From a bacterium (GTDB lineage: Bacteria > Vulcanimicrobiota > Vulcanimicrobiia > Vulcanimicrobiales > Vulcanimicrobiaceae), in contig JAJZED010000001.1 in NCBI GenBank assembly GCA_021805775.1, forward strand, positions 22,250 through 86,249: 64,000 bases of DNA, given 5' to 3'. The position numbers and the translations under genes were made by a program. This document shows positions 8,376-47,699 of the stretch, in pieces. How positions within the stretch are numbered: position 1 is the stretch's first letter; each line of letters opens with the position of its first letter. The notes beneath the pieces are model-generated. The model had not been told where the DNA came from and did not search any database. It saw nothing but the letters and a program-made list of their open reading frames with translations.

Positions 8376-8400
8376 CACGCCCCCGCGTTCGTAACGCAAA

Positions 8401-8440
8401 GAAGCGCCCCGCCGAGATTCGGCGGGGCGCTTCTTTCTAG
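8401..8440. terminator. Strong bidirectional intrinsic terminator
   Basis: Perfect 15-bp stem GAAGCGCCCCGCCGA / TCGGCGGGGCGCTTC with loop GATT (8401-8434), followed by TTCTTTCT on the plus strand; the minus strand reads CTTCTTTGCG. It separates convergent gdhA (plus) and the SGNH-lipoprotein gene (minus), and should serve both. Confidence 0.9.
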
Positions 8441-31260: not shown

Positions 31261-31297
31261 CAAAAGGGGAGGCGCCGTCGGCGCCTCCCCTTTCTTG
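31261..31297. terminator. Strong bidirectional terminator
   Basis: AAAGGGGAGGCGCC-GTC-GGCGCCTCCCCTTT (31263-31293), a 14-bp perfect stem, followed by CTT on plus and by TGCATTTC on minus. It separates the small exported-protein gene (plus) from the cupredoxin gene (minus). Confidence 0.88.
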
Positions 31298-33968: not shown

Positions 33969-34985
33969 TTACTTCTTCCCGTTGCGGAGGTTCTTAAGGT
34001 CGCGGAAGAGTTTGCGTTCCTTGTCGGTGAGATTTTGAGGGAATTGCCCGATAAGGCGGACGTACTGATCGCCGCTGCCGCCGCCTTTTACATGCGGCAT
34101 CCCTTTGCCGCTTAGGCGCAACAGACGGTTGTTCTGCGTCCCTTCGGGAATCGTCATCGCAACGTTTCCCCCCATCGTCGGCACTTGAACTTCGGCGCCC
34201 AACACGAGATCGTAGAGATCGACGGGGAGGTCGACGTAGAGATCGTCGCCCTTTCGCTTGTAGCGTGCATCGTCGGTGGTCTTTACGATGAGAAAGAGAT
34301 CGCCGCTGGGCGCACCACCGGTGCCGGCGCCGCCCTGGCCTGCGAGACGAATGCGTTGACCCTCGCCGATGCCTTTTGGAATCGATATCTCGAATTTCTT
34401 CGTGCTTAGCGTGCGCCCCGTTCCGTGGCAGGCTACGCAGAGGCGGCCGCTCTCCGTCCCGGTGCCACGGCAACGGGGGCAGCTATCCTCGAGTTGTAAC
34501 GAGATCGATTTTTTGCCGCCCTCGTAGATATCGTGCAAGGAAAGCTCGATGGTCGTTTCCATATCTTGTCCGCGCGTAGCGCTCGGAGCCGTACCGGCCG
34601 GGCCGCGACGGCCGACCCCGGAGAAGAACATATCGAAGAAATCCGAGAACCCGCTCGTACCCGCTCCGGCTGCCGCATTGGGGCCGAAACCGAAGTCGAA
34701 CTGCGTGGCGTTCTGTTGCGTTCGATAGCGCCGCTGTTGCTCCGCTTGCCGCGCCGCTTGCTGCCAATCGCTGCCGAGAGCGTCGTATTTTCGGCGTTTG
34801 TCGCTGTCGCCGAGTACTTCGTATGCTTCGGATATCTCTTTGAATTTCTCTTCGGCAGCCTTTGCATTACCGGGATTCGCGTCGGGGTGCCATTTGCGTG
34901 CGAGGCGACGATAGGCGGACTTGATGTCCTTCTCGGGAGCGCCCTTCGGCACGCCGAGAACGGCGTAGTAGTCCTTGTAATTCAT
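33969..34985 (-). CDS. dnaJ: DnaJ-type co-chaperone with a half zinc finger
   Basis: 338 residues. J domain at 1-70 with the HPD motif (KWHPDANPG), then a Gly/Phe-poor linker and the client-binding domain. Classical DnaJ has four CxxCxGxG repeats; this protein has only CPRCRGTG and CVACHGTG, enough for one zinc site. It falls between full DnaJ and CbpA-like proteins. It stimulates DnaK ATPase and delivers clients. The start overlaps the grpE stop by 4 bp, and dnaK lies upstream. The gene symbol is given on operon position. Confidence 0.88.
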
Positions 34986-35488
34986 TGATGCTTCGCAACG
35001 AGCACTTTCGCCGGTCGGAGGAGATCGTCGCCGAGGCGATAGCCTTTCTCCGCGACTTCGACGACGGTATCGTCGGCTTGCCCGTCGGTCGCTGCGACCG
35101 TTCCGATCGCTTCGGCGACGTGGGGATCGAACGGCAGTCCCTTCACATCGACGGCACTGATGCCCTCGGAGGAAAGAACCGCTTCGAACCCGCGCAGCGT
35201 GCTCTCTACCCCACTTCGAAGCGCTTCGCCTCCGGCGGGAACGGCAAGCGCGCGTTCGAGATTATCGAGCACCGGAAGTAAGCGCCCAAAAAGGCGACGC
35301 CGGTGCTCGACGATGCGTTGTTCGATATCTCGTTGAACGCGTCGTTTATAATTCTCGAAGTCGGCCATTGCAAGTAAAAATTTGTTGTAGTTTTCATCGG
35401 CGCGAGCGTTTGCTTTGGAGAGTTCGTTCTCCGGTTGCGCACTTTCTTCGCTTGCGTCGAGTGGATCGTTGAGAAGGTCGTTATCCAT
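34982..35488 (-). CDS. grpE: Nucleotide exchange factor GrpE
   Basis: 168 residues. Acidic disordered N-terminus ([17 protein letters not shown]), a long coiled coil (about 20-75, [23 protein letters not shown]), and the C-terminal beta domain with [19 protein letters not shown] and [21 protein letters not shown], the characteristic GrpE signature. It accelerates ADP release from DnaK. It sits between dnaK and dnaJ, overlapping dnaJ by 4 bp. Confidence 0.93.
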
Positions 35489-35546
35489 GGGTGCGTCTAT
35501 CTCTACTTCTTTTTAAAATGTTGAGCGCATGAAAAGACTGCGGGAG

Positions 35547-35580
35547 GTGAGGGCGGGTGCCGCGTACGGCTCGCCCTCAC
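35547..35580 (-). terminator. Hairpin between dnaK and grpE, possible attenuator
   Basis: Outer stem GTGAGGGCG/CGCCCTCAC, inner stem GCCG/CGGC, loop CGTA, with an unpaired bulge between. On the minus strand it is followed by TCCCGCAGTCTTTTC, with a short T-run. It lies about 20 bp after the dnaK stop. Such intercistronic hairpins often stabilise or partly terminate dnaK mRNA. Confidence 0.6.
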
Positions 35581-35601
35581 TCCACCCGCATGAGCCGGAG
35601 G

Positions 35602-37470
35602 TTACTTCGCTTCTTTGAACTCGGCGTCGATTGCATCGTCGGGCGCGGCGCTCGACGATGCGCCGTTTGCTGCGCCGTTCGATGCCTGGCCGTTCGCGGA
35701 TTCGGCACCGGCGGCATCGCCTTCGGGCGTCGCTCCGGTACTCTTGTAGAGCAGCTCTGCCATTTTGTAGCTCGCGCTCTGCAACTTTTCGATCGAAGCC
35801 TTGATCTCGGCAGCCGTGCCGTTCTCGCTGAGCTTCTTGAGTTCGGCGAGAGCGCTCTCGACTTCGCCGCGGGCGGCTGCGTCGAGTTTCTCCCCGACCT
35901 CTTTGAGCGATTTTTCGGTCGAGTAAGTTAGGCTCGACGCGGTATTTCGCACCTCTGCTTCTTCGCGCTTTGCCTTGTCGGCAGCCGCCTGAAGTTCGGC
36001 GTCCTTGACCATCCGCTCGACTTCCTCTTTGTTGAGGTTGGTCGATGCGGTGATAGTGATCTGCTGTTCTTTGCCCGTTCCGAGATCTTTCGCACCGACA
36101 TTGACGATGCCGTTGGCATCGATATTGAAGGTCACTTCGATCTGCGGTACGCCGCGCGGTGCGGGCGGAAGCCCTTCGAGCCGGAAGCGTCCCAGGGTCT
36201 TGTTGTCGCCGGCCATTGGGCGTTCGCCTTGCAGAATGTGAATATCCACGCTGGTTTGGCCGTCCTCGGCGGTTGTAAAAACCTGCGATTTCTTCGTCGG
36301 GATCGTCGTGTTCCGTTCGATCAGCGTCGTCATAACGCCGCCCATCGTTTCGAGCCCCAGTGAGAGCGGGGTAACGTCGAGAAGCACGACGTCGCGCACT
36401 TCACCGGAGAGAACGCCCGCCTGAATCGCCGCACCAACCGCGACGACTTCGTCGGGGTTGACGGTGAGGTTCGGGTCTTTGCCGGTGAGCTTACGGACGA
36501 GTTCGAGAATGACGGGCATGCGGGTCGATCCGCCGACCATCACCACTTCATCGATCTGCGAAATGTCGATTTTCGCATCGGCGAGAGCGCTCTTGAAAGG
36601 ATTGATGCAACGGTCGGTGAGATCGCTCGTGATCTCTTCGAACTTCGCGCGCGTCAAGGTGTATTCGAGATGCTTGGGGCCTTCGGCATCGGCGGTAATG
36701 AACGGTAGGTTGATCGTCGTCTGAACGACTGCGGAGAGTTCGATCTTTGCCTTCTCGGCGGCCTCGGTGAGGCGCTGCATCGCCTGCTTATCCTTGGAGA
36801 GATCGATTCCCTGATCTTTGCGGAATTCGCCGACGATCCATTCGACGACGCGATGATCGTAATCGTCGCCGCCGAGACGGGTATCGCCGTTGGTCGATTT
36901 TACTTCGAAGACGCCGTCCCCGACTTCGAGGATCGAGACATCGAAGGTGCCGCCGCCGAGATCCCATACGAGGATCGTCTCGTTGCCTTTTTTGTCGAGT
37001 CCATACGCGAGTGCGGCAGCGGTCGGTTCGTTGATGATGCGGAGCACTTCAAGCCCCGCAATTTTTCCGGCGTCCTTCGTCGCTTGACGTTGAGCGTCGT
37101 TGAAATAGGCGGGGACCGTGATCACCGCCTGGGTGACTCGCTCGCCGAGATAGTTGCTCGCGTCGTTCACGAGCTTTTGCAGAACCATCGCCGAGATCTC
37201 TTGCGGGGTGTAATCCTTGCCGTCGATCTTCACGCGATAGTCGCCCTCACCCATGTGGCGTTTGATCGAAGAGATCGTGCGCTCCGGATTGGTGACGGCC
37301 TGACGCTTTGCGAGTTGTCCGACGAGACGCTCGCCGGTTTTCGAGAAGGCCACGACCGACGGAGTCGTGCGCGATCCTTCCGAGTTTGCGATAACGGTGG
37401 GCGAGTTGCCCTCCATTACGGCGACGACCGAGTTGGTCGTGCCGAGGTCGATTCCGACCACTTTAGCCAT
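35602..37470 (-). CDS. dnaK: Chaperone DnaK (Hsp70)
   Basis: 622 residues. N-terminal ATPase domain begins [13 protein letters not shown]; other signatures are [32 protein letters not shown] and [10 protein letters not shown]. The substrate-binding domain follows, with [12 protein letters not shown] and [18 protein letters not shown]. The C-terminus is an Ala/Gly/Asn-rich tail ending [12 protein letters not shown]. It holds and refolds unfolded proteins with DnaJ and GrpE. The order dnaK-grpE-dnaJ, without hrcA or hspR beside it, resembles actinobacterial or deep-branching genomes. No CIRCE or HAIR element was seen upstream. Confidence 0.97.
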
Positions 37471-37749
37471 GAAGTTTTACCTCGTTGATGTGATGTGAAC
37501 CCCGAGCGCGCCCCGGACCAGCTTGATCGGGCGATCGGGCGGTCGAGCCGAGGCGCGCGCACATTCGAGGTTGGTGTGCGCGTCGCGACGAGTCGGCGAC
37601 GCTTCGATCGTTCGACGACGCCTTGCCGCTTACGAACGAATTCGGGCTTGGTTGCCTGCCCCATACTACAACAAGGAGCGGCAATTTGTTCCGCTCCTTG
37701 TAACAGCAGGGCTCCCCTTTAGGTTGCGCTCCCCTTGGAGCGCTTCGCG
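37471..37749. promoter_or_regulatory. htrA-dnaK intergenic region with an 11-9-11 inverted repeat
   Basis: The 279 bp hold no convincing gene. Bases 37671-37701 form ACAAGGAGCGG, nine bases, CCGCTCCTTGT: a perfect 11-bp inverted repeat with a 9-base spacer, the CIRCE geometry but not its sequence. It lies about 200 bp upstream of dnaK and 49 bp after the htrA stop. It may be an htrA transcript hairpin (without a U-run) or an operator. I could not pin a sigma promoter. Confidence 0.5.
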
Positions 37750-38946
37750 CTAGGGAACCGTTCCCGCGGTCGCCGGGCGCTCGGTTAGCGTCACCGCCGC
37801 GAACTTCTTGAGTCCTTGGGCCCAGAGATCGATCCGGACGACCGTTCCCGGTTTCTTCGCGGCGATATATTTCACGAGATCTTGCGTCTTGGTGAAACTC
37901 TTGCCGTCGACTTGGAGAATGACGTTGCCGGGCTCGAGCCCCGCCTTATCGGCCGGCGAACCGGGAACGACGGCGATGACGGCGATGCCGTTGGGGCCCG
38001 ACGCATAGCCGATCTGATTCCGTAAACCCGGAGTGAGATCGGCCATCTGGATCCCCATATAGCCTTCGTTGGTCCCTTGGGTGATGCCGGGGTGGGCGAG
38101 CATCTCGGCGACGACACGCTGCACCGTGTTCGCCGGGATGGCGAAACCGATGCCTTGGGCGTATGCCGATTTCACCGTCGACTGGTTGATGCCGATCACC
38201 TTGCCGTGGTCGTCGATCAACGGGCCGCCGGAGTTCCCGGGGTTGATCGGTGCGGAAGTTTGCAGAAGCCCTTTGAAATCGATCGTCTGCCCGCTATCGT
38301 TCTGGATCGGCTCGTTGCGATTGAACGCTGAGACGATACCCAGCGTCACCGTCTGCTGGAGCTCGAGCGGCTCGCCGATCGCGATCGCCCACTGCCCCTG
38401 CTCGACGCGATCGAAGTTGGCGAACTGCAGCGGCGGCGGCAGTTTTTTATAGCCGTCGACCCGGATGATCGCAAGGTCGGCCCCGATGTTCTCGGCGACG
38501 ACATGTGCCGGCACGTGATCGCCGTCGGCAAAGACCACCGTCAACTTGGTGATATTGCCGCCCTGTGGCGGGGTGACCACGTGCGCGTTGGTCACGATAT
38601 CGCCCTTCGTGTCGTAAACGAAGCCGGAACCCGATGCCTTCCCTTTGTACGGCTCTTCGACGCCTGGGCCGCCCTGGCCGAAGAAGCCTTGGAAGAACGG
38701 TACGACGCGCTGGCCGTTGACGTCGAGCTGGATTGCGACGACGGAGGGTTTCGTGCGCTTGACCGCCGAGACGATGCGATCTTGGTCGCTGATCCCTTGG
38801 AGCGGCGCGGCGGAGACCGCCGGAAGCGAGTGGTTTGGCCCGGCGACGCCGGTAAAATGCGTGCTGGCGTAGAGCATCATCAAAAAGCTGCCGACGCTCG
38901 CGCCGACGAGAGCGATGATGAGGGTGGGGAGAACGCGTTGTTTCAC
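37750..38946 (-). CDS. HtrA/DegP-like serine protease
   Basis: 398 residues. An N-terminal hydrophobic anchor (about 7-27), then a trypsin-like domain with the triad His in VTNAHVV, Asp in GADLAIIRVD and Ser in NPGNSGGPLID, and one C-terminal PDZ domain (VVPGSPADKAGLEPGNVILQVDGK). Such proteases degrade or refold misfolded envelope proteins. A single PDZ and a membrane anchor make it closer to DegS/HhoA than to DegP. It precedes dnaK on the same strand, which fits a stress cluster. Confidence 0.92.
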   Translation of the reverse strand: MKQRVLPTLIIALVGASVGSFLMMLYASTHFTGVAGPNHSLPAVSAAPLQGISDQDRIVSAVKRTKPSVVAIQLDVNGQRVVPFFQGFFGQGGPGVEEPYKGKASGSGFVYDTKGDIVTNAHVVTPPQGGNITKLTVVFADGDHVPAHVVAENIGADLAIIRVDGYKKLPPPLQFANFDRVEQGQWAIAIGEPLELQQTVTLGIVSAFNRNEPIQNDSGQTIDFKGLLQTSAPINPGNSGGPLIDDHGKVIGINQSTVKSAYAQGIGFAIPANTVQRVVAEMLAHPGITQGTNEGYMGIQMADLTPGLRNQIGYASGPNGIAVIAVVPGSPADKAGLEPGNVILQVDGKSFTKTQDLVKYIAAKKPGTVVRIDLWAQGLKKFAAVTLTERPATAGTVP

Positions 38947-38980: not shown

Positions 38981-39724
38981 TTACGATTGAGGGATTGCCT
39001 CTCGTTGAACGACGGAACCTTCCGAAAAGTGCCCGTGCGGGGTCGGCGTATCGGAAAGAATCAGGCCGTCGCGAAGGCGTACGACGCGATTTGCGCGCTC
39101 GGCGACCTCTTCGTCGTGGGTGACGACCACGATCGTGCGCCCCGATCTGTGGAGGCTCTTGAAGAGCGAGAGAATCTCCTCGCTCGTCGCGGTGTCGAGA
39201 TTGCCGGTCGGCTCGTCGGCGAGCAGCACCGCCGGGTTGTTGATCAACGCGCGCGCGATCGCGACTCGCTGCTGCTGGCCGCCCGAGAGCTCGCTGGGGC
39301 GGTGGTGCGCGCGATCGGCGAGCCCGACTTCGGCGAGCGCGCGTTGCGCGCGCTCGCGGCGTTCCTTCGGTGAGACTTTTGCATAAAAGAGCGGCAACGA
39401 GACGTTCTTCATCGCATCGGTACGAGGTAGCAGGTTGAAACCTTGGAAGATGAAGCCGAGTTTTTCCAGGCGTATCTTCGCCAGCGCGCGATCGTCGAGT
39501 GCGGAAACGTCGATTCCGTCGAGTCGATAGTTGCCCAAGGTCGGTCGGTCGAGGCAACCGATAACGTTCATGAGGGTCGATTTCCCCGAACCCGACGGGC
39601 CCATGATAGCAACGTATTCGCCGCGTTCGATGCGAAGGGTGACACCGCGCAGCGCCTGTACCTCGATGCTGCCGGTTTTGTAGGTCTTGACGATCTCTTG
39701 GAGATCGATCGCGATATCATTCAT
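38981..39724 (-). CDS. MacB-like ABC transporter ATPase
   Basis: 247 residues. Walker [26 protein letters not shown] signature, Walker [13 protein letters not shown], and the [11 protein letters not shown] start typical of the MacB/LolD class. The N-terminal 20 residues add a short coupling helix region. It overlaps the upstream permease by 8 bp. It energises the MacB-type transport of the two adjoining permeases; such systems export macrolides, toxins or lipoproteins through an adaptor and TolC. Confidence 0.93.
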
Positions 39725-40925
39725 AGCGTAATGCCTCTATGGGATCGACGGAAGCCGCGCGCAGCGCGGGAAGCGTTCCGAAGACGAGGGTGACGATCGT
39801 TGCGAAAAGAGTAGCGAGCAAGATTGCCTGCGTCCAGGGTAACGCGGCGATCGTTCCCGAGATGCGTGCGATGAGAATTTGTTGAGCGAGCTCTCCGATT
39901 CCAAGCCCGGCGAGCATCCCGATGAGCGAACCGCTAAACGCCAGAACGAACGCTTCGACGAAAAATTGGATAAGAATTGTCGCCCGCGAAGCGCCGATAG
40001 CACGTCGAATGCCGATCTCGCGCGTGCGTTCGCTCACAGAAACGAAGAGGATGTTCATGATGCCGATACCGGCGACCAAGAGCGAGATCGCCCCGACCGC
40101 GCCGACGATCGTGCCGATGACGCCGAAGAAGCCGTCGACCTTTTTGGTGAAAAATCCGAAATCGAAGGTTTGGTAGATCGATCCGCCGTGGGCATCGGAG
40201 AGCACGCGCTTGGCGTTTGCTTCCAACGTCGCTAACGTTGCATCGCGACTGCCGAGAACCTGAATGCCGAAGAGCGGGCGTCCGCGCTGGTAGTCGTTGT
40301 AGAAAGTGGTGTAGGGGATCACTACATCGTTGTTGATATCGAAGCCCAACGACGCGGTCGAGAGCGTCGCCGGCCCGAGAATTCCGGCGACGACGTAACG
40401 TTTCGGACCGACGTAGACCGACTGCCCGAGAACCGTCTCGGGGTCGGCGGCGTGCGGGAAAAGCCGTTTGTAGGCCTTGGCGGAGAGAACGCAGACCGGG
40501 GTCGCGTTTTCGACATCGCTGCGGGTGATCGCATGCCCTGCGACCACGGGTGCGGTGCTGAAGCGACGGTAAGATTCGCCGCCGAATTTCAACATGATGT
40601 GTTGGTGCCCGGCGCTGACGATCGTGCGCGTTTGGCCGAACGGGATGGCCGTTTCGACTCCGGGCACATTCCGGTCGAGGAGTTTGAGATCGGAGAGCCC
40701 GAGGTTCGCTCGCTGCGTGCTGCCTTGCGTCGATTTCGGGAAAATGAAGAACGTGTTCATGTTGATGCCGCGAAAAGCGCCGTTGACGGCGGCCGCCATG
40801 CCGGCTGCGGCGACCTGGATGGATATAATCGCCGCAACCCCGACGACGAGCCCGACGAGCGTTAGCACCGTGCGCGTCAGATTCGCTTGCATGAGTTCGA
40901 GCGTTTCGCGAATGTAATCGACCAT
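39717..40925 (-). CDS. MacB-like ABC permease, second copy
   Basis: 402 residues with the MacB layout: one N-terminal membrane helix, a periplasmic domain (about 45-270), then three helices. [14 protein letters not shown] and the terminal DPIEALRYE are family signatures. It lies one base after the preceding permease stop (40927), and its 3' end overlaps the ATPase gene by 8 bp. Two unlike permease genes in tandem suggest a heterodimeric transporter, since MacB proper is a homodimer. Confidence 0.92.
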
Positions 40926-40926
40926 C

Positions 40927-42114
40927 TCAGCTCCGCAAGGCTATGACGGGATCGAGTTTTCCGGCGCGGATCGCCGGATAGGCGCCGAAGCCGATACCGA
41001 TGCCGATGGTAAAGAATGCGGCGATTGAGAGCACCAGCGCCCACGGAACCGGCGCGCTCCCGGCAAAATGCACGATGCTGCCTTGGAGCGCGAGCACGAT
41101 AAGGACGCCGAAAATGCTCCCGATCGCCCCGCCGATGATCGAGAGAATCGTCGCTTCGATTAAAAATTGCAACGAGATATCTCCCGAACTCGCACCGATC
41201 GACTTGCGGATACCGATCTCGCGAGTTCGTTCGTTTACCGAAACCAACATGATGTTCATGATGCCGATGCCGGCAACGCAGAGGGCGATCCCGCCGATGA
41301 GCGTGATGCCGATGCCGATGCCGCCGAGGACGCGGGAGAAAACGCCGAGCGATTTCGCCTGGTCCTGGATCGTGTATTTTGCGTGCGGTCCGTGGAGGTT
41401 CTTGAGAGCGGCCTTCGCCGCTGCCGTTACCTGTGCCGATGTGAGGCCGGGTGCGGAATAAAAAATAATTCCGTCGATCGGGCCCGGGGCGATGCGGTGC
41501 ATCGTGGTATAAGGGACGTAGATTGCGTCGCCGATGGCGCTGCTAAGTAGGCTGCCGGTGGCATCGAAAACACCGACGATGCGCAGGCGAGCGTTGCCGA
41601 CGGAGATGCTTCGTCCAACCGGATCTTCATGCGGAAAGAGCGTCTTGCGCGCTTCTTTTGAGATCATGGCGACGTTCGCTGAAGCCAAAACGTCGTTGTG
41701 ATCGAGCTTGCGGCCCTCGAGGATCACCATCGCATTGTCGCCTTTGTCGGTTCCGTGGAGCTGCGGATAATGGGTCTTCCCGCCGACATTTACCGGAAAC
41801 GGACGACCGAAATATCCCGCGTAGGCCGAGGCTATAGCGCCGTTACTCCGGGCGACGAAGCGAGCGACATCGCGGTAATAGAGCGTCGCCGCAAGCGGAT
41901 TATCGGACGATCGATCGACGAACGCGACCCACCCGACCGAATCGGCGTTACCGAGCGATTTCTCTAGACCGAGCGAACCCGCTTGGCTGAGTCCCAAGAC
42001 GGCGATCGTCGACGCGATTCCGATGATCGTACCGAGAAGCGAGAGCGCCGATCGAAGGCGATTGCGCCAGAGGGAGGCGAAGGCTTCTTCGATGTAGGCA
42101 GCGAGAACGCTCAC
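40927..42114 (-). CDS. MacB-like ABC permease, first copy
   Basis: 395 residues with the same layout as the next gene: N-terminal helix (NRLRSALSLLGTIIGIASTIAV), a periplasmic domain, three C-terminal helices, with [14 protein letters not shown] and a C-terminal KLDPVIALRS. It overlaps the adaptor gene by 4 bp at its start. Differences from the second permease run through the periplasmic domain, so they are not recent duplicates. Confidence 0.92.
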   Translation of the reverse strand: MSVLAAYIEEAFASLWRNRLRSALSLLGTIIGIASTIAVLGLSQAGSLGLEKSLGNADSVGWVAFVDRSSDNPLAATLYYRDVARFVARSNGAIASAYAGYFGRPFPVNVGGKTHYPQLHGTDKGDNAMVILEGRKLDHNDVLASANVAMISKEARKTLFPHEDPVGRSISVGNARLRIVGVFDATGSLLSSAIGDAIYVPYTTMHRIAPGPIDGIIFYSAPGLTSAQVTAAAKAALKNLHGPHAKYTIQDQAKSLGVFSRVLGGIGIGITLIGGIALCVAGIGIMNIMLVSVNERTREIGIRKSIGASSGDISLQFLIEATILSIIGGAIGSIFGVLIVLALQGSIVHFAGSAPVPWALVLSIAAFFTIGIGIGFGAYPAIRAGKLDPVIALRS

Positions 42115-43406
42115 GGAGTACCCGAGGGGCTGCTCTGCGGAATCGGGAGGATACGCATACCTTCGTGTAATACGGGGAGCGCCGTCGCGACGACCGTTTC
42201 GCCTGCGGTGAGTCCCGAGCGAACGACGCTCTGAACGTCGTTGCTCTTGCCGAGTACGACTGCAACTTCATGGGCCTTGCCGCCGCGTACGAGCCAGACC
42301 TTCGTTTGCTTCTTCACGTGAACGATTGCGGCGGTCGGTACGACGAGCGCGTGCGGAATGCTCGTCGTGAGAATATCGACGTTCGCGGTCATTCCGTCGC
42401 GCAGCACCGGACTCGTCTCGTCGAGCGCAATCGTCGTCAGAACTTCGCGTGCCGTCGAGCCGGCATCGGTGGAGCGGGTGGCAATCGGCGAGATACGCTC
42501 GATGTGCCCGTGGAGGGTGGTGTGGGGAAAATCTTCGCTCGTTACGTTGACCGGCATGCCGAGTTTAACGGCGTGAACGTCTTGTTCGTCGACTTGTGCT
42601 TGGACGACGTAGGCGCTGCCCTCGGCGATGGTAAACATTGCTTGCCCGGCAGAGACGGCGTCTCCGGGAAGAATCGTGCGGTTCGCGTCGGTGGGGCGCG
42701 GCGCAACGCTCTGAATGATGCCGTCGAACGGCGCGACGATGCGTTCGAAGCCGAGTTGTTGTTGGGCCTGGTCGTTGAGGATCTTTGATTTCAAGGCCTG
42801 CGCTTTCGCAGCTTGCACCGAACTCGTGCCGTAACCGGTCACCGCGCCGAGTTTAAGTTGCTCGACCGATTGATCGTAAGCGACTTTTGCCTGCTCTTCC
42901 TTCGCGCGGTCGGCATCGAGTTGGCTACGTGGAATCGCCTTGTCGGCGTAGAGCGTCTCGTCGGCCTTTAGGACTCGGAGTGCCTCGTCGAGGTTGCTTC
43001 GTGCGGTGTCGACCCCGGCCTGATACTGCACGCGAGCGTTACGTTCTTGAATTGCAGCGGTGCTAACGTTTGCGACCGAACTCTGATAATCGGCGAGAGC
43101 GCCGGCGGCGTTTGCGTCGAGCGACGGGTTTTCGATCGTAGCGAGAACCTCACCGGCACGCACGCGATCGCCCGCCTTTACATCGAGGGTCGCGAGATTT
43201 CCGCCGACTAAAGCCGGAATCGTCTCCATGTGCGGGTGCATTACGGTGCCGTTCTCCGGAAGCTTCACCACGAATGTCGTCGGTTCGAGTTTAATCGTTT
43301 TAACGGCGACGGAGTTGGTCGTATGCGGACGGAACGCAAGCGCCAACCCGATGAGAATTATCGCGACGACGGCAGCGAGGACGAAAAACCGGGCTTTCTT
43401 ATTCAT
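42111..43406 (-). CDS. Periplasmic adaptor (MacA/HlyD family)
   Basis: 431 residues. One N-terminal membrane segment (about 8-26), a lipoyl-like domain (VKAGDRVRAGEVLATIENP), a long coiled-coil hairpin (about 80-190), a second lipoyl half (IVAPFDGIIQSVAPR), and a beta-barrel/membrane-proximal domain with KLGMPVNVTSEDFP. It links the MacB permeases to TolC. The stop overlaps the permease start by 4 bp and the start lies 8 bp after the TolC-like gene. Confidence 0.92.
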   Translation of the reverse strand: MNKKARFFVLAAVVAIILIGLALAFRPHTTNSVAVKTIKLEPTTFVVKLPENGTVMHPHMETIPALVGGNLATLDVKAGDRVRAGEVLATIENPSLDANAAGALADYQSSVANVSTAAIQERNARVQYQAGVDTARSNLDEALRVLKADETLYADKAIPRSQLDADRAKEEQAKVAYDQSVEQLKLGAVTGYGTSSVQAAKAQALKSKILNDQAQQQLGFERIVAPFDGIIQSVAPRPTDANRTILPGDAVSAGQAMFTIAEGSAYVVQAQVDEQDVHAVKLGMPVNVTSEDFPHTTLHGHIERISPIATRSTDAGSTAREVLTTIALDETSPVLRDGMTANVDILTTSIPHALVVPTAAIVHVKKQTKVWLVRGGKAHEVAVVLGKSNDVQSVVRSGLTAGETVVATALPVLHEGMRILPIPQSSPSGTP

Positions 43407-43414
43407 AGTGCTCC

Positions 43415-44830
43415 TTAGTGAAGGTCGGCGACGGCGTTCGTCGGTGAAAAAATACCCATGGAGGTACGCAAGCGCACGAGCGCGTTGACGTAAGCCACGC
43501 GTGCGGCGATCAGGTCGTTTTGCGCCGAAATGGAAGTTTGCTGGGCCTGAACGACATCGGAGAGCGCGGCCACGCCCGCTCGATATTGAAGTTGCTTAAT
43601 GCGCGCGCTCTCGATGCCTAAGCGAGCTTCTTGTTTCGCAAAGCCCACTTGAGCGACCGCTGCTTTAGCGGCGCGATAGGCACTACGAACGTCGTTGAGC
43701 GCGACGAGTTTCGCATTCACCAAGGCAAGCTTTGCACTTCGCACCGCGGCCTCATAATTGACGCGCGATAAGCGGCGAGCTCCGTAATCGACAATCGGCA
43801 GATTGAAAGTTGAGACGGCCTGGATCTGCCAGAAGCCGGGGGTGCCGCGCGGAACGAGGATTTTATTCGGAATGAGTCCTGCGGCGTACTCGTTGTCGAG
43901 TTGTTGCTGCGTGAAGACGGCGTTGGTTGGTGAAAATTGATTGCCGACTGCGGCCGAGAGTTGAATTTGCGGGAAGAGTTGCGGGAGCCAGCTCTTGCGA
44001 TTGAGGTCGGCGACCCGAAGCGCATAGCGTGCGCTCGCGATATCGGCGCGGTTTGCCAAGGCGATTCGCTCGATTTTTTGCATCGACATCGCCGGGAGCG
44101 GCGGCATCGTGAGTTGTTTTGGCAGTGCGAAGGGCGTGCCGAGCGGGGCGCCGATGCTTTGACAGAGTGCGTCGCGGGCGTTTTCAACGTTTGCCCGGGC
44201 GGCAACGAGCGTCGATTCGCTGCGCGCGACGGCGACGCGTGCCGAGAGCACGTCAACACCGGCGGCGACCCCGGCGCGCTCTTTCACGCGGGCGTTTTGC
44301 AGCAGCAGTCTCTGATATTGAAGGTCGCCGCGATCGACGTTCACCATTTCTTCGTCCTGAACGACGGCGTTGTACGCACTCGTCACCGAGGTCGCCACCT
44401 GCGCCTGGGAATTGCGAAGATTCGCTTTCGCTTGTTCGAGGTTCGCCTTCGATACGGCGAGTTGGATGCCGGCGAGTCCCCCGGTTGTGAGCGTATATTG
44501 CGCCTGCAGTTGCGCGGTGTTCTGACTGAAAACGCTCTGTTGCTGCGCGCCGATGACGGCGTAGGCGCCACCGTAGTTGGAACTCTTTGACATGATGTTA
44601 TTGAGCGAGGCGCCGGCGGTCGGCAGATTTTGCGTTTTCTGCGTGGCGAAAGAAGATCGCGCCGCCGCTACCGCCGCCGTCGAAGCGGCGACCGTGGAGT
44701 TGTGCGCGAGTGCGTAGGCAACCGCCGCTCGTAAGTCGAGCGGCCGCGGTGCCGCGCCGGCTGGGCCGGCGAAGAGAGCTCCGGCGAGCAGCGCCGGAGC
44801 CGATATCCAAACGAAAAGTAGGCGACGCAT
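43415..44830 (-). CDS. TolC-family outer-membrane factor
   Basis: 471 residues from ATG 44830, giving a clean signal peptide (RRLLFVWISAPALLAGALFAGPAGA). A start at GTG 44851 adds seven basic residues and has no obvious Shine-Dalgarno. The rest has two homologous coiled-coil halves of outer-membrane efflux proteins (AVAYALAHNSTVAASTAAV; LALVNAKLVALNDVRSAYRAAKAAV). It forms a trimeric tunnel with the adaptor. An 11-bp inverted repeat surrounds the ATG (see 44817-44842). First gene of the five-gene exporter set. Confidence 0.93.
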   Translation of the reverse strand: MRRLLFVWISAPALLAGALFAGPAGAAPRPLDLRAAVAYALAHNSTVAASTAAVAAARSSFATQKTQNLPTAGASLNNIMSKSSNYGGAYAVIGAQQQSVFSQNTAQLQAQYTLTTGGLAGIQLAVSKANLEQAKANLRNSQAQVATSVTSAYNAVVQDEEMVNVDRGDLQYQRLLLQNARVKERAGVAAGVDVLSARVAVARSESTLVAARANVENARDALCQSIGAPLGTPFALPKQLTMPPLPAMSMQKIERIALANRADIASARYALRVADLNRKSWLPQLFPQIQLSAAVGNQFSPTNAVFTQQQLDNEYAAGLIPNKILVPRGTPGFWQIQAVSTFNLPIVDYGARRLSRVNYEAAVRSAKLALVNAKLVALNDVRSAYRAAKAAVAQVGFAKQEARLGIESARIKQLQYRAGVAALSDVVQAQQTSISAQNDLIAARVAYVNALVRLRTSMGIFSPTNAVADLH

Positions 44831-44842
44831 ACGTCGCCTACT
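44817..44842 (-). promoter_or_regulatory. Inverted repeat with the tolC-like start codon in its loop
   Basis: On the minus strand: AGTAGGCGACG, then TATG, then CGTCGCCTACT. The 11-bp arms are perfectly complementary, and the four-base loop contains ATG 44828-44830. In RNA this would place the initiator AUG in a tetraloop; in DNA it is a 26-bp palindrome suitable for a dimeric repressor. Confidence 0.55.
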
Positions 44843-44875
44843 ACGGGGCACGGGGGAAAAAGTTTCAGGGAACCG

Positions 44876-45649
44876 CTACGGGCTAGCCGATGCGCTCGTC
44901 GTCGGAGGGGTGCCATTGCTCGCGGCAGGGATTTGACGGGCGAACCCCGCGGCGAACAACGCCGGGATCAGCAGCACGACAAGCGCGGCCGCCCAGGCTT
45001 TGGGTGCCGCCAGACGAGCGATGCGCTGCATGAGGAGCGCGTTGAGCCAGAGCGCCCAGAGCGTGAACGGGGTGAATGACGCGAGCAACCCGGCGAGCTT
45101 GATATTCGCCGTTGGAATTACCGCCGCGAGCGAAAGTGAATTGCGAAAGATATCCATTTCACTTGTGAACGCATCGGGGCCGCGCAGCGCGAGCACGATG
45201 GAAGCGATAAGCGACCCGATTGAAATGACGGCGAACACATTCATGCTCGCGCACCAAAGTTGTTTAAACGTCGCTTTCCCGCTCAGAAGGGCGTTGCAAA
45301 GCAAGAGAACGACGGTCACGATTCCTACGCTAACGAAAACGCCGATCGGCGAGAAGACCCAAGCGAACTCCGAAAACTTCGCGGTGATTGAAAACACGGC
45401 CCTCGCGGCGGCCAATTGCTGCGCGTTCGTTGAAGCGGCGATGCCTCGTTCCATTATCAACCGAGCGAGATGTTGCTGGACCGGGCCGCTGGCCAACGAT
45501 GTGACGATCGTAAGGACCGAGGCGGCGATAAACGCCCAGCCCCAGGTTTGCTTCTCGGCGAGGCGGTCGAAGGCGCTCGCCGGGGCGACGACGATTTCGA
45601 CGAGGCTGGTGAGCCCCGCGTTCTCTTGAGGTGGTGGTGCAGTTGTCAT
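44876..45649 (-). CDS. Yip1-family membrane protein
   Basis: 257 residues. A soluble N-terminus with the Yip1-type LVEIVVAPASAFDRLAEKQTW, then about five membrane segments (about 37-55, 95-125, 135-160, 180-205, 215-235). The fold is associated with small membrane proteins near efflux genes, with no known biochemical role. It lies 45 bp before the TolC-like ATG on the same strand and may be co-transcribed with it. Confidence 0.75.
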   Translation of the reverse strand: MTTAPPPQENAGLTSLVEIVVAPASAFDRLAEKQTWGWAFIAASVLTIVTSLASGPVQQHLARLIMERGIAASTNAQQLAAARAVFSITAKFSEFAWVFSPIGVFVSVGIVTVVLLLCNALLSGKATFKQLWCASMNVFAVISIGSLIASIVLALRGPDAFTSEMDIFRNSLSLAAVIPTANIKLAGLLASFTPFTLWALWLNALLMQRIARLAAPKAWAAALVVLLIPALFAAGFARQIPAASNGTPPTTSASASP

Positions 45650-45950
45650 GGCTGCGACTATTGGCGGGCGACGCCTCGGTTCTTGCCGAGAGGAACGGAT
45701 CGGCGAGTAGGCAGCCGACCGAGGCCCCCGCTCGCAGGAGACGCTCCAGGCGTCCGAGGCGCTCGCGGCGGAGCTCGAGTAGGCGCAGAACGAGTATATC
45801 TCGCGTTCGCCGTAGGGCGTGCCAAGAATAGAGGGTTTCGGCGCGTGGAACCGCGATTTCCGGCCGCTTCGGATGCTGCGTGGCGTGGCGGGTGCTTCCG
45901 AGCAGGCTCGCGGCTAGTAGCGCGAGCGTGATAGAGTATCTGTAACCCAT
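45330..45950 (-). CDS. Possible degraded or out-of-frame secreted protein gene
   Basis: ATG 45950 has GGAGG seven bases upstream and encodes a plausible signal peptide (GYRYSITLALLAASLLGSTRHA). After about 100 residues rich in Arg, the frame runs on 320 bp into the Yip1 gene, in a different phase from it. The overlap suggests a frameshifted or lost 3' end. If functional, the real product is only the 45651-45950 part. I have no homologue in mind. Confidence 0.3.
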   Translation of the reverse strand: MGYRYSITLALLAASLLGSTRHATQHPKRPEIAVPRAETLYSWHALRRTRDILVLRLLELRRERLGRLERLLRAGASVGCLLADPFLSARTEASPANSRSHDNCTTTSRERGAHQPRRNRRRPGERLRPPRREANLGLGVYRRLGPYDRHIVGQRPGPATSRSVDNGTRHRRFNERAAIGRREGRVFNHREVFGVRLGLLADRRFR

Positions 45951-46004
45951 GGGCGTTCCTCCGCCCGTCATTCCCACGCAAATAGCCGTTGTAAAGGCCT
46001 CATA

Positions 46005-47699
46005 TTGAAAACGCAGAGCATCTCCGTTCCTAAAGCTCCCAAGGAGCCCTTCGTTCGCGTCGTTCCGCTCGGCGGCTGCGGCGAAATCGGCCGAAATATG
46101 ACGGTGATCGAAACCAACGACGATTTGGTCGTCGTCGACTGCGGGTTGATGTTTCCCGACGAAGAGATGTTCGGCGTCGATATCGTTATTAACGATTTCA
46201 GCTACATTCGCGAACGGGTGCATAAACTGCGCGCGGTTCTAGTGACGCACGGGCACGAAGATCACATCGGCGGTATTCCTTATTTTTTGCGAGAATTTCC
46301 GAACACGCCGATCGTCGGTACGGCGATCACCGGCGCGCTCATCAAAGCGAAGTCTCGCGAACATAAACTCGGCGAGATGCCGTTGGTCGCCGTCGCGCCG
46401 GGCGATCGCGTTCGTTACGGCGAAATCGAGGCAGAGTTCGTGCATATCAACCATTCGGTCGCGGGCGCCTGTTCGCTCGCCGTGCGTACGCCGAGCGGAA
46501 CGATTTTTCACACCGGCGATTTTAAGTTCGATCAGACGCCGATCGACGGCCGACCGGCGGATTTTGCGGCGCTCGCGCGCATCGGGGAAGAAGGCGTGCT
46601 CTGCATGCTTGCCGATTCAACGAATGCCGAACGGCCGGGGCACACCCAATCCGAACGCGTCGTCGGCGAAGCCTTCACGACGATTTTCTCGAAGGCGACC
46701 GGGCGAATTCTCATCGTTTCTTTCGCGTCGAACGTTCCTCGCATTCAACAGGCGATCGATCACGCCGAAAAATTTGGCCGGAAAATCGCGTTTCTTGGGC
46801 GTTCGATGAACAACGTATTACATTTTGCGCGCGAACACGGACACCTTCGCATTCCACCCGATATTTTAGTGAAAATCGAAGACGTGGGTAATCTTCGTGC
46901 CGACCAAATCGTCGTGATGACGACGGGCTCGCAAGGCGAGCCGATGAGCGGACTCTCGCGAATGTCGGTGCGCGATCATCCGAAGTTCTCTATCGACCCC
47001 GGCGATACCATCGTTATCAGTGCGACGCCGATTCCCGGAAACGAAAAGAGCGTCTATCGCACGATCAATAATCTCTATCGCCTCGGTGCAACGGTCATTC
47101 ATGGGAGCGAAGGCCGCGCTCACGTCTCCGGGCATGCTTCGCAAGAAGAGCTTTTGCTGATGCTCAACCTCATTCGCCCGGAGTACTTTATTCCCGTGCA
47201 CGGCGAGTACCGTATGTTGGTGACGCACGGCAGCTTGGCGACGAAGACGGGGGTGCACCCCGAGAGCGTTTTCGTTATCGAAAACGGCGACATCGTCGAA
47301 TTTACTGCCGAGTACGGCGACAAAATCGGGAAGACCTACGGAGGCATGGTACTCGTCGACGGGACGGGCTTGGGCGAGATGGGCGAGGCCGTTCTGCGCG
47401 ACCGGAAAATGCTTTCGAACGACGGCATCGTTACTGCCGTCGTTGCAATCGACGCTGAAGAAGCGCAAACGATCGGCGTGCCCGATATCGTGACGCGCGG
47501 TGCGTTCTACGAACCGGAATCCGAAGCGCTGATCGAGCATCTTCGTTCGCATTTAAGCGCGATGTTGGCGACGCTTTCGACCGACGCCCTGCGCGACACT
47601 AATTCGGTGCGCGAGCACGTGCGAGCGACGTTGGCGAAAGAAATTTTTTCGCGAACGCGTCGTCGGCCGGTGATCGTGCCGATCGTTATCGAGGCGTAG
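46005..47699 (+). CDS. rnj: Ribonuclease J
   Basis: 564 residues, starting at TTG 46005 with AAAGG about seven bases upstream. Metallo-beta-lactamase core with the metal-binding HGHEDHIGG, HINHSVAGAC and FHTGDFKF, then the beta-CASP motifs (LADSTNAERPG, FASNVPRIQQA, MTTGSQGEPMSGL) and GSEGRAHVSGHASQEEL. The C-terminal domain is present. It is a 5'-3' exonuclease and endonuclease for mRNA and rRNA processing. Alternatives such as other beta-CASP enzymes are unlikely with this length and motif set. Confidence 0.93.
   Translation: MKTQSISVPKAPKEPFVRVVPLGGCGEIGRNMTVIETNDDLVVVDCGLMFPDEEMFGVDIVINDFSYIRERVHKLRAVLVTHGHEDHIGGIPYFLREFPNTPIVGTAITGALIKAKSREHKLGEMPLVAVAPGDRVRYGEIEAEFVHINHSVAGACSLAVRTPSGTIFHTGDFKFDQTPIDGRPADFAALARIGEEGVLCMLADSTNAERPGHTQSERVVGEAFTTIFSKATGRILIVSFASNVPRIQQAIDHAEKFGRKIAFLGRSMNNVLHFAREHGHLRIPPDILVKIEDVGNLRADQIVVMTTGSQGEPMSGLSRMSVRDHPKFSIDPGDTIVISATPIPGNEKSVYRTINNLYRLGATVIHGSEGRAHVSGHASQEELLLMLNLIRPEYFIPVHGEYRMLVTHGSLATKTGVHPESVFVIENGDIVEFTAEYGDKIGKTYGGMVLVDGTGLGEMGEAVLRDRKMLSNDGIVTAVVAIDAEEAQTIGVPDIVTRGAFYEPESEALIEHLRSHLSAMLATLSTDALRDTNSVREHVRATLAKEIFSRTRRRPVIVPIVIEA

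Follow-up and report, generated by a model that had tools for sequence, protein, structure and literature searches.

Efflux operons are usually controlled by repressors of the TetR or MarR type, of which the operator forms a perfect dyad over the -10 element and the start point of transcription; a repressor site in this position is common and is the commoner arrangement in general, and the regulator gene usually lies nearby or carries a second site at its own start, although neither is strictly required. In the MS2 replicase operator and in RNA thermometers, the start codon lies within a hairpin and the ribosome site is paired. On the sense strand, intrinsic (rho-independent) terminators and attenuators combine a strong stem with a T-rich tract downstream of it. 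For the SigW-type ECF promoters of Bacillus, the published consensus is TGAAAC-N16,17-CGTA (PMC2375139), and the -35 consensus is TGAAACXTTT, with its first T at position -36 (PMC6713349).

The start of the TolC-like exporter gene analyzed here resembles each of these systems in part. It is located in a 64-kb stretch of DNA (hereafter the window; G000:C6:22250-86249) from a 2.59-Mb genome that has Candidatus Eremiobacterota metagenome-assembled genomes among its close named relatives. Its palindrome is like the TetR/MarR-type operators in the dyad, but differs in that no recognized regulator gene lies nearby and no second site was found. The placement of ATG in a hairpin is shared with the MS2 replicase operator and RNA thermometers, but the operon's own transcript, as predicted here, lacks half the hairpin. 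A strong stem and then a T-rich, though interrupted, tract on the sense strand are found as in intrinsic terminators, but the stem spans the start codon, its left arm overlaps the -10 element, and an RNA started at the predicted point could not form it. As in the SigW-type promoters, TGAAAC-N16-CGTA occurs together with TTT after the -35 element (PMC2375139, PMC6713349) and with stress-linked genes downstream, but the host belongs to another phylum and the predicted start point falls on a perfect palindrome and a start codon. A narrow search of the open-licence literature, covering SigW/ECF consensus, leaderless operators, terminator/promoter overlap, start codons in hairpin loops and Eremiobacterota promoters, yielded no matching arrangement. 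The element added by the present analysis is a putative ECF-type promoter that shares its center with the palindrome, at a start predicted to be leaderless.

Gene organization and the palindrome at the tolC start

The gene context of the palindrome is as follows.

44876-45649, minus strand: Yip1-domain membrane protein (PF04893), upstream, its stop 45 nt before ATG 44830
43415-44830, minus strand: TolC-like efflux protein of the outer membrane (PF02321), 471 aa when read from ATG 44830
42111-43406, minus strand: HlyD/MacA-like adaptor
40927-42114, minus strand: MacB-like permease 1
39717-40925, minus strand: MacB-like permease 2
38981-39724, minus strand: ABC transporter ATPase
37750-38946, minus strand: HtrA-like trypsin and PDZ protease, its gene separated by 34 nt from that of the ATPase

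The HtrA-like protease gene is possibly the last gene of the operon. It is followed on the same strand as the exporter by dnaK-grpE-dnaJ (33969-38946 for all four genes), and together these genes make a possible stress-gene block. As to the start of tolC, a signal-peptide-like stretch, MRRLLFV...PAL..GALFAG.AGA, follows ATG 44830 in all eight aligned sequences of the genus, and ATG 44830 is likely to be the start codon. The upstream alternative, GTG 44851, was rejected because its column in the alignment is not conserved across the eight (GTG in three, ATG in one, CTG in three and CTC in one).

The palindrome and the sequence next to it consist of the following elements.

44817-44842, minus strand: perfect inverted repeat with 11-bp arms at 44842-44832 and 44827-44817, 11 of 11 Watson-Crick pairs
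44831-44828, minus strand: loop TATG, four bases, containing the start codon ATG 44830-44828
44809-44816, minus strand: T-rich tail TTTCGTTT, directly after the stem, in codons 5-7 of tolC
44809-44846, minus strand: 38-nt block, CCGT plus palindrome plus TTTCGTTT, invariant at 8 of 8 same-genus starts

Across 44842-44817 the minus-strand letters are AGTAGGCGACG-TATG-CGTCGCCTACT, with the dyad axis between A44830 and T44829, so that the perfect 11-bp hairpin with ATG 44830 in its TATG loop, described in the first-pass annotation, is borne out. The site is unique in the window at 3 mismatches, and was matched in none of 100 shuffles. After a census of perfect hairpins of at least 11 bp with loops of 3-8, we counted 9 distinct sites in 234,079 bases of the genome (10 rows, one site being counted twice through two overlapping loci), compared with 0-2 per shuffle in five Markov shuffles. 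A perfect 11-bp hairpin by itself is only mildly rare in this genome; what goes beyond chance is its placement and conservation taken together.

The genus sample consisted of 10 genomes, of which 9 carry a close tolC (G004 is the one without), and the tolC start could be compared in 8, the contig of G003 beginning inside the gene. The same annotation had named conservation in relatives as the check on the palindrome, and within the genus it is indeed conserved, being identical at all eight starts. The eight aligned sequences are 74-91% identical overall, yet the 38 nt at the palindrome are without variation. This block is the longest invariant run in the tolC alignment (the second longest is 12) and again in a 5.6-kb alignment of 7 sequences (second longest, 23). 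Its invariance rejects a chance hairpin; since nothing varies among the eight starts, no compensatory changes in the arms are to be seen. Codons 2-7 of tolC are all invariant as codons, against a background of 72 such codons among the 371 with an invariant amino acid (a set that excludes Met and Trp), and four of these six are minority codons kept in all eight: CTA (3.3% of Leu), CTT (11.6%), CGT (14.1% of Arg) and GTT (18.6% of Val), as estimated from 28 genes of the window.

In the eight genomes with a tolC start, the palindrome was found, at up to 1 mismatch, only at that start. When up to 3 mismatches of 20 letters were allowed, the 10 genus genomes yielded one further match, located in a coding frame of the own genome, and no second non-coding site. 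A separate search of the own genome gave four 3-mismatch matches, all within long coding-like frames, and the 1-mismatch matches in two other genera (L081 and L082) fall within coding frames as well. The inner core GGCGACG-N4-CGTCGCC is frequent (42 sites, counting those with 1 mismatch, versus 7 for the reversed control), and its two exact extra copies sit in long coding-like frames. A repeat family or mobile palindrome was rejected on the ground of the single copy per genome, which fits a cis-acting element.

Outside the genus, we collected 21 loci (L010-L030) and assessed 18, after L013, L016 and L021, for which no start was assignable, had been dropped. The palindrome is absent from all 18 tolC starts of these other genera of the family and class, and between -60 and +40 of tolC none of the 18 carries the promoter motif described below or a perfect hairpin over 6 bp. 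In 17 of them an upstream open frame terminates close to the tolC start, at positions from 4 nt within the gene to 34 nt in front of it, with overlap in 6 cases (L014 is the locus without an upstream frame), and this near-abutting frame looks as in a coupled operon. As both promoter and hairpin are missing in the outgroups, the two are peculiar to this genus, where they occupy a gap widened to 45 nt.

Putative ECF-type promoter and predicted start point

The promoter elements upstream of tolC are as follows.

44862-44867, minus strand: -35 element TGAAAC, inside CTGAAACTTTT (44868-44858), invariant in 8 of 8
44842-44845, minus strand: -10 element CGTA, spaced 16 nt from TGAAAC; the palindrome begins with the final A of this element
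44831, minus strand: predicted +1, T44831, the base preceding ATG, as placed by SigW numbering

The putative promoter, which ends in the left arm of the palindrome, had escaped the first-pass annotation. The sequence TGAAACTTTT at 44867-44858, invariant in all eight, fits the SigW -35 consensus TGAAACXTTT (PMC6713349), and TGAAAC-N16-CGTA as a whole equals the SigW consensus, which comes from Bacillus, a phylum other than that of the host (PMC2375139). In the order upstream of tolC, CTGAAACTTTT is invariant, the following 11 nt are variable in letters but fixed in number, and CCGTAG is again invariant; all eight tolC starts thus keep TGAAAC-N16-CGTA, the spacer of which varies in sequence and is constant in length. 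To judge from the match, this promoter may depend on an ECF sigma factor.

When TGAAAC is taken to begin with T-36, T44831 becomes +1 and ATG begins at +2, and the predicted +1, the start codon and the dyad axis coincide within 2 nt. With the predicted +1 at the axis, the operon's own RNA would carry the right arm only and could not fold the hairpin. In computed folds, RNA begun 0 or 3 nt before ATG cannot form the palindrome stem, while RNA begun 12 or 60 nt before ATG forms it in all eight genomes. The operon's own mRNA is accordingly predicted to be almost leaderless. A crude gene calling in 234 kb gives no more than a hint of leaderless initiation in this genome: ribosome sites were detected for 23 of 50 genes inside operons (control, 1) and for 31 of 125 first genes (control, 14), while TANNNT was present between -14 and -9 in 10 of the 125 first genes, versus 8 and 3 at control positions.

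The exact form TGAAAC-N16-CGTAGTA occurs once in the own genome, and the promoter motif at 2 mismatches is not over-represented genome-wide (12 and 20 versus 21 and 20 for the reversed control). The argument for the promoter therefore rests on conservation and not on counts. A search of the relatives for TGAAACT-N15-CGTA identified a second gene with the motif (L099:10276-10325), at which TGAAAC-N16-CGTA is kept in all 7 starts with a variable spacer, even where the upstream sequence is unrelated (L127, without the start of that gene, is left out of the count). Its product of 256 aa gave only weak family matches (DUF7330, LiaX). In part of the genomes, the TGA of its TGAAAC is at the same time the stop codon of the preceding gene.

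As for the sigma factor, the genome contains 12 sigma-70 region-2 matches, one of which is an ECF sigma of 194 aa on contig C27 (PF04542, PF08281, ECF superfamily). Its gene is preceded by CGAAAC-N17-GTA in all 8 genomes that have it, with CGTA in 7 of the 8, and its ATG follows 8 nt after CGTA; the motif differs from that of tolC in the first base and in spacer length. We regard this sigma factor as a candidate partner of the tolC promoter. The same gap (C27 near 46530 in the own genome; L112-L119) carries TGAAACC-N17-CGTATG in the opposite direction, making two divergent ECF-like promoters.

Possible roles of the palindrome

We tentatively favor, at somewhat short of an even chance, the reading of the palindrome as a terminator or insulator that acts only on read-through RNA. 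The exporter operon would have its own ECF-sigma-type promoter with the start point on the dyad axis, and the self-started RNA, with its 5' end at or one base before AUG and devoid of the left arm, would be read nearly leaderless. Since this RNA lacks the left arm, the mRNA hairpin could form only in read-through from the Yip1-like gene. Such RNA, having both arms, would fold into the 11-bp hairpin with AGTAGG in the stem, followed by UUUCGUUU, and would be terminated or at least not translated, the ribosome site being closed. The palindrome would in this way make the operon depend on its own promoter, and the start codon would fall in the loop as a consequence of the axis having to coincide with the transcription start. 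Under this reading several features are accounted for: the position of the axis at +1, the placement of ATG in the loop, the restriction of the T-rich flank to one side, the occurrence as a single copy, and the fact that promoter and palindrome are present together.

The stem itself is strong, with a computed energy of -18.8 kcal/mol, and in a simple terminator scan stem plus UUUCGUUU scored as terminator-like on the minus strand only. Between 37 and 50 kb the scan gave 12 terminator-like sites, of which the palindrome stem is the longest; as the shuffles gave a mean of 16.6, i.e., more than observed, the scan alone proves nothing. Several observations stand against the insulator reading. First, the T-rich tail, with 6 T of 8, is interrupted. 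Second, at the ECF sigma gene, where the promoter is present without a hairpin, early codons are strongly conserved as well, with a 22-nt invariant run, so that the conserved T-rich tail is not specific to a terminator. Third, gene starts elsewhere in the region likewise carry invariant runs of 15-22 nt. The lack of compensatory changes in the arms and the weakness of the leaderless signal in the genome also count against it.

The fuller proposal, that promoter and terminator share the same bases and a common axis at the start codon, with the hairpin formed only in RNA from upstream, and that by this self-start-only gate the genus removed the exporter from its ancestral operon and brought it under the control of an ECF sigma factor, is plausible, if somewhat less likely than not. 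If true, it would represent a very compact operon rewiring, in which a single 38-nt block combines a -10 element with the start point, the start codon, codons 2-7 and a read-through stop. For an Eremiobacterota genus represented here by metagenome-assembled genomes alone, the analysis further supplies a first ECF-type promoter motif that can be tested together with its candidate sigma gene, as well as a putative leaderless start that lends itself to testing.

The second of the two mechanisms put forward in the first-pass annotation, a DNA operator placed on the start, is a serious contender, which we place only slightly behind the insulator reading. A dimeric repressor bound to the palindrome over -11 to +15 would block polymerase, and ATG would lie inside only because the message is leaderless. 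The perfect dyad, invariant in 8 of 8, does overlap the predicted -10 element and start point. On the other hand, the single coding match is all that the 10 genus genomes offer as a further site at up to 3 mismatches of 20, indicating that no autoregulated regulator shares the palindrome, and no recognizable regulator domain was detected among 20 neighboring proteins scanned, of which 3 match no family. The operator reading leaves both absences to chance, and does not predict a conserved T-rich flank on one side only.

The other mechanism of that annotation, gating of initiation by mRNA structure, is improbable for the operon's own mRNA, while it may apply to read-through RNA. A longer leader would fold and hide AGTAGG and codons 2-5 until temperature, a ligand or an RNA-binding protein opened the hairpin. 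In agreement with this, the ribosome-site-like AGTAGG, 6 nt before ATG, is paired inside the stem in the fold, and the context of htrA and dnaK-grpE-dnaJ is one of stress genes. However, for such a gate to act on the operon's own mRNA, transcription would have to start upstream of the predicted point, which the conserved promoter puts downstream of the left arm; the folded 101-nt stretch is only modestly better than shuffles (z -2.05), and for a thermometer a stem of this energy is very stable. In 44300-46100 all Rfam families stay below their gathering scores, and a known RNA family for the hairpin was rejected for this reason. The claim that the exporter is controlled at one point is partly supported, through the conservation, with the first of its two proposed mechanisms unlikely for the operon's own transcript. 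Equally improbable is a palindrome without function, its symmetry a frozen accident of separately conserved promoter, start codon and early codons: the conserved early codons of the hairpin-less sigma gene speak for it, but the invariance of all 11 pairs at the eight starts, the use of rare codons and the longest invariant run of the region speak against it.

Several other features were noted in the course of the analysis. Intergenic perfect hairpins at 8398-8436 (18 bp) and 31263-31293 (14- to 15-bp), flanked by A and T runs, are probably two-way terminators. The longest perfect hairpin in the 234 kb examined is of 19 bp with an 8-nt loop (L109:2658-2703). A conserved minus-strand frame at about 45850-45960, flanked by the RNase J and Yip1 genes, begins with ATGGGTTACAG and carries a 22-nt invariant run near its 5' end.
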